The position numbers and the translations under genes were made by a program. Positions 15,625 to 17,434 of a stretch of DNA of 22,748 nucleotides are shown piece by piece. The notes under the pieces were generated by a model. The model did no database searches, was not told the origin of the DNA, and worked only from the letters and a program-made list of their open reading frames with translations. Within the stretch, counting starts at the first letter, position 1, and every line of letters starts with the position of its first letter. The stretch is taken from positions 1 through 22,748 of IMG/VR virus record IMGVR_UViG_3300030104_003808. One strand, written 5' to 3'. This stretch comes from a virus.

Positions 15625-15786
15625 ATGATTACACTTATTCGCCCACTACTATTTACATTTCTGCAATCTGATCGAGTTAAGAGCTTGATTGTTGAGATGC
15701 TGGAAAAGCTTGCTGAGTCAACCGATAACGATATCGACGACAAGGCAGTTGAGTTTGTACGTAACGGTCTTTTCCCGGCTAAGTAA
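15625..15786 (+). CDS. Small conserved-type hypothetical protein, 53 aa
   Basis: ATG at 15625 to TAA at 15784-15786. The N-terminus (IRPLLFTFLQ) is hydrophobic and short; the rest is an amphipathic, acidic helix region (VEMLEKLAESTDNDIDDKAVEF) ending GLFPAK. It is too short for a full transmembrane hairpin but could associate with the membrane. It lies directly after the fibre gene, where T7 encodes the holin (gp17.5), and its stop overlaps the ATG of the next gene (TAATG). I recall similar small proteins in cyanophages, but no function is known to me. A lysis or virion role would be a guess from position. Confidence 0.7.
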   Translation: MITLIRPLLFTFLQSDRVKSLIVEMLEKLAESTDNDIDDKAVEFVRNGLFPAK

Positions 15787-16220
15787 TGGAATGGGGAGAA
15801 CCACCGTTACTCCCCTCTGTAACGCTTCCTGAGCCGCCTAAACTGCCTGGTCCTGTACTTGATATACCGCAGGCAGATATACCGTCTTATACGCCCTTAG
15901 TGGTGCCACCTAGCGACCTTAGACCTCCTCCTGGAGTTAAACCTAGCGGTCAACCGAGTGCACCACCTAAGCCGCAGATACCTGTAGTACAACCACCACA
16001 GATACAGCCACCTGAAGTCCGAACACTGGATGTTCCAGGTACTGATATTGAGGTTCCTGTACCTAGCGGTGAAATTCTCGTCACTGCTGCCACAACAGCA
16101 TTCGTATCAGTTGCTGCCACCTTATCTGCTACTGCATTATTTAAATACCTAGTCACTTTATTAAAGCCTGTATTTAAGCAAGCATGGAGCAAGATAACCA
16201 AAAAAAAAGTGAGTTCATAA
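15786..16220 (+). CDS. Proline-rich protein with one C-terminal membrane segment, 144 aa
   Basis: The first ~95 residues are extremely Pro-rich (PPLLP, PEPPKLP, PPPGVKPSGQP, QPPQIQPPE), forming an extended, probably polyproline-II rod. Residues 96-119 are a hydrophobic segment (VTAATTAFVSVAATLSATALF), followed by a basic tail (KPVFKQAWSKITKKKVSS). No signal peptide is present, so a C-terminal anchor with the proline rod on one side of the inner membrane is the simplest model. It starts in a TAATG overlap with the 53-aa gene and overlaps the holin-like gene by 37 nt in another frame. Position after the fibre suggests a role in lysis timing or envelope passage. A virion-associated protein is the alternative. 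I do not know a named family. Confidence 0.78.
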   Translation: MEWGEPPLLPSVTLPEPPKLPGPVLDIPQADIPSYTPLVVPPSDLRPPPGVKPSGQPSAPPKPQIPVVQPPQIQPPEVRTLDVPGTDIEVPVPSGEILVTAATTAFVSVAATLSATALFKYLVTLLKPVFKQAWSKITKKKVSS

Positions 16221-16363
16221 AATTCATTGTCCTTGTCTGGTCTGCAGGTCTTTTGACAGCAAGTTATGCAGGGTGGATGGAGAAAATGGACCCTACTTAT
16301 GTCGCTTCAATTCTTAGCGGCACACTGGCAACCTTTTCAATTACAAGAGAAAAGAACAAATGA
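16184..16363 (+). CDS. Holin-like small membrane protein, 59 aa
   Basis: ATG at 16184 to TGA at 16361-16363. The charged start (MEQDNQKKSE) precedes a hydrophobic helix, FIKFIVLVWSAGLLTASYAGW (about residues 11-31, given the limits of inspection). A short polar turn with MEKMDP follows, then a second weaker hydrophobic segment, YVASILSGTLATFS (39-52), and a charged end (TREKNK). Size, two membrane segments and charged tail fit a small holin, and the place just after the fibre is where T7 has holin gp17.5 (67 aa). The gene lies 37 nt inside the end of the proline-rich gene and overlaps the next start by ATGA. Function is inferred from topology and position only. Confidence 0.65.
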   Translation: MEQDNQKKSEFIKFIVLVWSAGLLTASYAGWMEKMDPTYVASILSGTLATFSITREKNK

Positions 16364-16710
16364 AAGCAATTCTAGTCTCACTGATGCTGGCTACACCTGT
16401 GTCGGCACAGACAGTTACTCCTAAATTTACACAAGGGAGTATGCAATCAAATACCACTACTACCACCAATATCACCAGGACTATTGACCAGGAGGTACTT
16501 GGTGGCGCATATTCATCATGGTCAGGAACGAACGTAACTCCAAGCGGAGCTATTGGAGACGCAGCTACAACTTACTCGGTAACAACACCTGGAGATCAGT
16601 TTCAGCTGGAAATCACGGAGCGAGCAGCGGGAATTATCGAAAACATCGACATCACAGAAACCGTTACTCAAACTTCTACCACTACCTCATTGTCTGTCTT
16701 CTCTCAGTAA
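16360..16710 (+). CDS. Secreted Thr/Asn-rich protein with signal peptide, 116 aa
   Basis: The N-terminus is a clear signal peptide (MKAILVSLMLATPVSA, cleavage expected after residue 16, VSA|QT). The mature part is polar and Thr/Ser/Asn-rich (SNTTTTTNITRTID near residues 30-43), with a GTNVTPSG segment and a C-terminus ending SLSVFSQ. It has no cysteine and looks beta-rich. I recall similar secreted proteins in cyanophage genomes without assigned function. It is joined to the holin-like gene by an ATGA overlap and overlaps the next secreted-protein gene by 193 nt in the -1 frame. Export to the periplasm or outer membrane late in infection suggests a role in lysis or release, but this is inference. 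Confidence 0.82.
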   Translation: MKAILVSLMLATPVSAQTVTPKFTQGSMQSNTTTTTNITRTIDQEVLGGAYSSWSGTNVTPSGAIGDAATTYSVTTPGDQFQLEITERAAGIIENIDITETVTQTSTTTSLSVFSQ

Positions 16711-17180
16711 GTCCAGCTTACGCAGAAGATGCTCCAGAGGTTTACAACACATCTAATCCAGTGGCAGCAGCTACTGGCAACGTAACTAACCAAGCCGTTC
16801 AGTTTCAGAACAACGGTGCACCGTCCAGACAGTATTTCCACGGAAACAACTCCTGTAACGGCACCACCTTGTCATTCAGTCCCTTTTACATGGGGAATGA
16901 CACAACTCCTATGGAGCCTTCCGGTTATGTCAAAGGAAACAACTGGGGAGCACAGCTTAGTCTTTCTGTACCGCTTGACGGCGGCATGGTTGAAACGTGT
17001 AAGCAGATAGCAAGACGACATGAACAAAAGATGCGTCTTGACTATGAATTAGTTCGCGCATTGAAGTGCACGGAAATAATGAAAAGCGGCTTTACGTTTC
17101 GCCCTGGCAGCCGTGTATCGGTCTTATGTCAGGACATCGTGCCGATTGTATTAATCGACAAACGAGATCTCAACTGGTAA
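16518..17180 (+). CDS. Secreted protein with four cysteines; true start uncertain
   Basis: The frame runs from ATG 16518 to TAA 17178-17180 (220 aa). Only the part from about 16680 looks like real protein: a hydrophobic segment (YLIVCLLSVSPAYA, signal cleavage expected after A69) leads into a mature domain with Asn/Gly-rich blocks (NPVAAATGNVTNQAVQ, FSPFYMGNDTTP) and, further on, cysteines at CNGTT, CKQIARR, ALKCTE and VLCQD. Upstream of the hydrophobic segment the frame is the shadow of the 116-aa gene. The only usual start is ATG 16518, which would give a 69-residue basic extension; the only other candidate is ATT 16689. The TAATG overlap at its end couples it to the next gene. It probably acts in the periplasm or outer envelope; function unknown. 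Confidence 0.75.
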   Translation: MVRNERNSKRSYWRRSYNLLGNNTWRSVSAGNHGASSGNYRKHRHHRNRYSNFYHYLIVCLLSVSPAYAEDAPEVYNTSNPVAAATGNVTNQAVQFQNNGAPSRQYFHGNNSCNGTTLSFSPFYMGNDTTPMEPSGYVKGNNWGAQLSLSVPLDGGMVETCKQIARRHEQKMRLDYELVRALKCTEIMKSGFTFRPGSRVSVLCQDIVPIVLIDKRDLNW

Positions 17181-17434
17181 TGCTAGAAGCACTAGTAACT
17201 GCTGTAATCGCCTGCATTGCGGGCGGTGCAGCTTTAAACAACAGACTACACAACAGAATAGGAAATGTACACGACCGTATTAGCGGTCTAGACCGTCGTA
17301 TTGACACTTTAGAGCTAACAGTAGCTCAAGAATATGTATCTAAAACTGATCTATCTGCCTTAGTAAGCAGGATGGAAGATCACATGATTCGTATTGAAAA
17401 CAAATTAGATCAAATCGTATTAAGGAATAGCTAA
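17180..17434 (+). CDS. Membrane-anchored coiled-coil protein, 84 aa (spanin-like topology)
   Basis: Residues 3-19 form an N-terminal hydrophobic helix (ALVTAVIACIAGGAAL). The rest is charged and heptad-like: RIGNVHDRISGLDRRIDTLELTV (about 26-48) and ALVSRMEDHMIRIENKLDQIV (60-80), typical of a coiled coil. One membrane anchor plus coiled coil resembles inner-membrane spanins (Rz/gp18.5 class) or small XhlA-like lysis proteins, and the location between fibre and terminase matches the T7 lysis region. The longer frame from 17066 is open, but ATG 17180 in a TAATG overlap is preferred because upstream residues would overlap the previous domain. A structural role is possible. The lysis assignment is topological only. 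Confidence 0.72.
   Translation: MLEALVTAVIACIAGGAALNNRLHNRIGNVHDRISGLDRRIDTLELTVAQEYVSKTDLSALVSRMEDHMIRIENKLDQIVLRNS

Follow-up and report, generated by a model that had tools for sequence, protein, structure and literature searches.

The window, by which we mean the whole 22.7-kb virus record analysed here, has a T7-like cyanophage gene order and contains two genes, ORF1 and ORF2, that overlap out of frame by 193 nt. In this report, we found that both are very probably genuine genes, carried on one mRNA and each encoding an exported protein, and that ORF2 is translated from an independent start at ATG 16518, a start that appears mobile between tryptophan positions of ORF1. From the comparative evidence, we put the probability of this reading at roughly 0.88. 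As judged by alignment with its relatives, the overlap is genuine, conserved and under selection, and ORF2 initiates in the ordinary way, on an AUG, though at an unusual position; readings that invoke unusual initiation are unneeded.

Overlapping genes for two predicted exported proteins

ORF1 (16360-16710, plus strand) runs from ATG 16360 to the TAA at 16708-16710 and encodes 116 amino acids. ORF2 (16518-17180, plus strand) lies in the -1 frame of ORF1, from ATG 16518 to the TAA at 17178-17180, and encodes 220. The T and G of the ORF2 ATG (16518-16520, plus strand) are the first bases of the ORF1 W54 codon, TGG 16519-16521, and its A is the wobble base of TCA, the ORF1 codon preceding W54. 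An SD-like GGTGG (written GGtGG) is located within ORF1 at 16501-16505 (plus strand), 12 nt 5' of the ATG. ORF2, still on the plus strand, comprises a basic leader of 56 codons lying entirely within ORF1 (16518-16685), a hydrophobic core with an AxA site, LIVCLLSVSPAYA (16686-16724), which is antiphase to the ORF1 C-terminus TSLSVFSQ-stop, and a mature region of 151 amino acids (16725-17177) with invariant C44, C92, C115 and C135. The gene 3' of ORF2 (17180-17434, plus strand) begins at the last base of the ORF2 stop (TAATG).

The entire run of small genes from 15786 to 17434 is tightly overlapped: 15786-16220 overlaps 16184-16363, an ATGA lies at 16360, ORF1 and ORF2 share 193 nt, and the TAATG is at 17178. 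The ORF at 16184 has a match to Pfam DUF6450 and resembles a small membrane protein.

The initial annotation had described the 193-nt overlap and a separate hydrophobic core in each frame. We verified the exact length, found the overlap and the ORF2 frame again in 413 non-redundant loci, well outside what chance would give, and located both cores, ILVSLMLATPV..SA in ORF1 and the stretch given above in ORF2. ORF1 has a signal peptide, MKAILVSLMLATPVSA, no cysteine and a single tryptophan (W54). ORF2 has the features of an over-long Sec signal peptide (basic n-region, hydrophobic core and AxA, by sequence and hydropathy) followed by the mature domain with its four cysteines. The predicted cleavage regions, between PVSA and QTV in ORF1 and between AYA and EDA in ORF2, were assigned, like the signal peptides themselves, by eye and hydropathy. 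From these features, we infer that both proteins are exported and cleaved; the four invariant cysteines of mature ORF2 fit an oxidising compartment.

In the mechanism that we propose, ribosomes would initiate ORF2 on their own at ATG 16518, aided by the SD-like GGTGG that ORF1 encodes. The first 56 residues would constitute an over-long basic n-region, the core would direct the protein to Sec, with probable signal peptidase I cleavage after AYA then freeing a disulfide-containing domain. Over evolution, the start has shifted between tryptophan positions, making the overlap longer or shorter, and the frame 3' of the current start has stayed free of stops.

Database comparisons place ORF1 in PHROG 650 (Pfam DUF6322 only below threshold) and ORF2 in PHROG 1755/848, none of which carries a function annotation. 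NCBIfam gave no match above its cut-off, and a PDB sequence search returned nothing significant. The structural model of ORF1 (pLDDT 84, pTM 0.41) is a long-stranded beta structure with no helix; its PDB matches are weak (best E 2e-3, TM 0.23), and six matches at E<=0.001 in a viral library are to unnamed or uncharacterized proteins, some of them from cyanophages. The low-confidence model of ORF2 (pLDDT 66) has beta strands and then a 35-residue helix, and found no PDB structure match at E<=0.001. A role in the envelope during infection or lysis would be our guess.

Selection on the shared DNA and the start of ORF2

ORF2 was matched in 392 phage records by tblastn and ORF1, a short and Thr-rich query, in 30. 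Scans of IMG/VR added several hundred relatives, for a set of 413 non-redundant overlapping pairs in the -1 frame that excludes duplicates, loci cut by contig ends, loci in other frames and those failing a strict pattern for the ORF1 end. The pair is found in cyanopodoviruses and T4-like cyanomyoviruses. Seven named phages from the podoviruses and T4-like myoviruses have the overlap without exception, with an ORF1 end of SLSVFSQ-stop or a near variant antiphase to the ORF2 core; ORF1 is conserved among the relatives and keeps this C-terminus. In every one of the 413 loci, ORF1 contains an ATG, GTG or TTG that is in frame with ORF2. These loci are related, and counts among them are not independent events; our within-sequence and between-clade controls lessen, but do not remove, the effect of kinship. 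The comparisons speak directly to frame use, start position, stop avoidance and start mobility.

One signal is the avoidance of stops in the ORF2 frame, with expected counts obtained by synonymous recoding of the same ORF1 proteins and with positions given in nt relative to the ORF1 stop. In the clade of the window, 8 stops were observed against 284 expected from -190 to -60, and 0 against 110 from -60 to 0, whereas upstream of the start there were 370 against 199 expected; the depletion begins exactly at ATG 16518. The myoviruses that start at -61 have 0 stops against 85 expected inside ORF2 and 158 against 122 upstream. These stop counts, like the wobble-base and third-position tests, use clade-level boundaries, whereas zero counts taken per start class are built into the definition of the class. 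At third positions where a T would create a stop inside ORF2, T occurs in 0.65%, compared with 35% at the other third positions there and 73% upstream. We thus give almost no credence to the notion that the -1 frame is open merely from the Thr/Ser-rich composition of ORF1, the overlap being an artefact or remnant. Repetitive Thr/Ser codons can keep other frames open, and 30 of 66 P-SSP7-clade loci have an open frame over -300 to -195, near the 24 expected. Yet recoding of the very same proteins yields hundreds of stops, stops 5' of the window-clade start and of the -61 and -109 starts reach or exceed their expected numbers (for the P-SSP7 clade, 136 against 116 upstream of -109), and the mature ORF2 domain is conserved, with its four invariant cysteines.

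The start codon itself is also preserved. The base before the window-clade tryptophan is A in 112 of 116 loci, nearly always in a Ser TCA codon, and the ATG is retained to the same extent; the P-SSP7 clade, which starts elsewhere, has a mixture of ACG, ACT, ACC and ACA beside its tryptophan at -190. Across all loci, the base ahead of the first tryptophan past the last stop in the ORF2 frame is A in 372, G in 26, T in 15 and C in none, whereas ahead of tryptophans 5' of that stop it is T in 53, G in 28, A in 28 and C in 7. Synonymous variation in ORF1 falls to 0.07-0.30 of expectation at the window-clade start (0.07 at the TCA codon) and to 0.0 at the -61 start. The initial annotation had proposed synonymous constraint across the overlap as a check; the dip appears at the ORF2 start codon, but the leader is near average. 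The SD-like site has the window-clade consensus TAtGGtGGtGct and a mean anti-SD duplex energy of -6.46, against -2.11 at control positions. Only the window and -61 clades show this embedded signal strongly; the -109 start lacks it. Taken together, the comparisons indicate that ORF1 and ORF2 are both under selection over their shared DNA, as in a dual-coding pair; of the arrangements initially put forward, dual coding is thus the one with strong comparative support (frame kept open, stops avoided, start kept).

Two other arrangements had been suggested, namely initiation on the non-AUG codon ATT 16689 and re-initiation coupled to the ORF1 stop, near the TAA at 16708. We confirmed that ATG 16518 and ATT 16689 are the only start-like codons in the ORF2 frame between 16518 and the core, and either suggestion would give ORF2 a short signal peptide of more usual length. 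We nevertheless consider both very unlikely. They leave unexplained the 190-nt open frame, the fixed A before W54 and the constraint boundary at -190; ATT 16689, although in frame, lies inside the hydrophobic core and would leave no basic n-region; and every overlapping relative surveyed has an NTG start 5' of the core. Selection preserves the ordinary ATG 16518 instead. This ATG had been deemed awkward for its 69-residue leader: the length is as described, but the codon is selectively kept. It had also been anticipated that, if a normal ATG directly preceded the core in homologues, this would point to a local error here. Such starts do exist in some relatives (the -61 myoviruses, including S-H38), but the arrangement in the window is not a local error, since its entire clade retains both ATG -190 and the open frame.

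A programmed -1 frameshift in ORF1, yielding an ORF1-ORF2 fusion, seems highly improbable. ORF2 is in the -1 frame at nearly all loci, and a fusion needs no ORF2 start. However, a search of the ORF1 frame for X-XXY-YYZ slippery heptamers again came up empty, as it had in the initial annotation, and the stop-free zone starts exactly at the NTG of each clade, at places that differ between clades. Further, the AxA-bounded core would sit inside the fusion, which is the wrong topology, and ORF2 is in the +1 frame in one group of loci and separate from ORF1 in another (both described below).

An independent start leaves the leader to be accounted for. A signal peptide of 69 residues, or of more than 120 as in the NATL1A-7 clade, would be of unusual length for Sec, which counts against the reading that we favor. 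The leader might instead have a function of its own, for example as a cytoplasmic regulatory or nucleic-acid-binding tail. Leaders are indeed more basic than expected, with a net charge per residue of 0.172 against 0.140 in the -190 class and 0.174 against 0.078 in the -109 class. Against this stand the near-average variation of ORF1 synonymous sites, which are the first codon positions of ORF2, and leader lengths that range between clades from about 14 to more than 110 residues. The sequence is barely constrained beyond its openness and its start, and we infer from the near-average synonymous variation that the leader is carried along rather than selected for its sequence; a separate function is thus unlikely in our estimation.

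Start positions and tryptophan codons among the relatives

The relatives differ in where ORF2 begins. The start is at -61 in S-H38 and DSL-LC02; at -64 or -109 in P-SSP7, P-GSP1 and SS120-1; at -163 in S-ShM2 and S-RIM50; at -190 in the window, S-TIP37 and KBS-P-1A; at about -289 to -322 in Bellamy, S-SM2, P-RSM6 and their relatives; and at -346 to -361 in NATL1A-7 and its relatives, where nearly all of ORF1 is inside ORF2. In the NATL1A-7 clade (L086, 2806-3690), ORF2 opens 8 nt past the ORF1 ATG (ATG AAG AAA TGG), and the ORF2 frame contains 5 stops against 55 expected from -360 to -207. The NATL1A-7 "gp165" was considered as an in-frame ORF1-ORF2 fusion, which was ruled out: its translation is the long ORF2 frame only.

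A simple rule appears to govern these positions. An NTG in the -1 frame requires TGN in the ORF1 frame, that is, Trp, Cys or a stop. No cysteine occurs in mature ORF1 among the 413 overlapping loci, and the ORF2 start must therefore use a tryptophan codon. The start is the last tryptophan of ORF1 before the core in 317 of the 413. The window-clade leader is long because ORF1 there has no nearer codon fit for a -1-frame NTG; a minority of the clade has an extra tryptophan at -136 or -109, mostly after T or C.

The tryptophans of ORF1 follow the same pattern. Alignment column 131 is Trp in 49/49 loci of the -61 class and in no other class, column 94 is Trp in 52/53 of the -163 class, and column 32 is Trp in 65/66 of the class near -300 and Tyr in 53/53 of the -163 class. 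For three of the six tryptophan columns, Trp is essentially limited to the clade whose ORF2 begins at that position; columns 36 and 114 depart from this, being podovirus-wide or common to several podovirus classes. A tryptophan in ORF1 thus appears, largely though not always, to be the footprint of an ORF2 start. A tree of ORF2 from 77 representatives, with partial branch support, has 11 changes of start position, where the minimum for 8 classes is 7; along this series, the overlap may have grown or shrunk. We consider it probable that the ORF2 start moves along ORF1 (with overlaps of 61 to 361 nt, and separated and other-frame relatives), lands on tryptophan codons only, and imposes tryptophan on ORF1.

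Other arrangements are rare. Four loci (L170-L173) carry ORF2 in the +1 frame relative to ORF1; there it begins with TTG and has a signal peptide of the usual length, whose hydrophobic core is quite different but still signal-peptide-like. Three freshwater contigs (L584, L585 and L587) have the two genes separated, with an ORF1 that contains cysteine but no tryptophan and has Ala in the column of the -61 tryptophan.

Relation to other overlaps and to existing annotation

The spanins of tailed phages (lambda Rz/Rz1, P2 LysB/LysC; PMC6139136) are likewise two envelope proteins from out-of-frame overlapping genes, in which the second gene starts within the first, the length of the overlap varies between phages, and one gene or its start is often missed by annotators, as here. 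The resemblance does not extend to the proteins. Neither cleavage region in our pair has a lipobox or a cysteine as in an o-spanin, and ORF1, whose signal peptide is short and of AxA type and whose model shows beta strands but no helix, does not resemble an i-spanin with its uncut anchor and periplasmic coiled coil; both ORF1 and ORF2 carry AxA-type signal peptides, and neither has an uncut N-terminal membrane anchor. The spanin survey found no family linking embedded to other architectures (PMC6139136), whereas one homologous pair here covers separated, short, long and nearly nested states.

Co-directional overlaps that arise by 5' extension (Fonseca 2013, PMC3887535; Palleja 2008, PMC2478687) also place the start of the downstream gene inside its upstream neighbour, in phase 2. 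When prokaryotic genes on the same strand overlap at length, the usual verdict is a mispredicted start, and no real co-directional overlap above 60 bp was found among 338 cellular genomes (Palleja 2008, PMC2478687). The present overlap, by contrast, occurs in phages, has selection behind it and extends to as much as 361 nt, as supported by independent tests in hundreds of viruses; it also makes visible a start rule confined to tryptophan codons. Because the relatives show overlaps of various lengths, and some have none, one can follow here how an overlap grows instead of modelling it. If our reading is true, the start series would be a natural example of long-overlap growth in which the start of one gene rewrites another protein. 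The rule that the host gene must supply a Trp or Cys codon for a -1-frame start explains the odd, far-upstream starts and could be applied in gene calling.

Our open-access literature searches found no description of the ORF1/ORF2 overlap. P-SSP7 gp44/gp45, cyanomyovirus T4-GC 236/235 and NATL1A-7 "gp165" are homologues of ORF1/ORF2 that have been annotated separately as hypothetical proteins, and the present results correct the annotation of two gene families widespread in marine cyanophages. The GenBank start of ORF2 is often wrong, as in S-TIP37 (L082), where it is placed inside the mature part, and ORF1 is unannotated in S-P4 (L414), S-RIM50 (L416), P-RSM6 (L415) and S-SM2 (L417). In P-GSP1 (L409), ORF2 apparently carries, as a C-terminal fusion, a homologue of the small window gene at 15625-15786. 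Finally, ORF1/ORF2 pairs also occur on contigs binned as Neomarinimicrobiota, Euryarchaeota, Bacteroidetes and others (L578-L595), which look like mis-binned cyanophage contigs.
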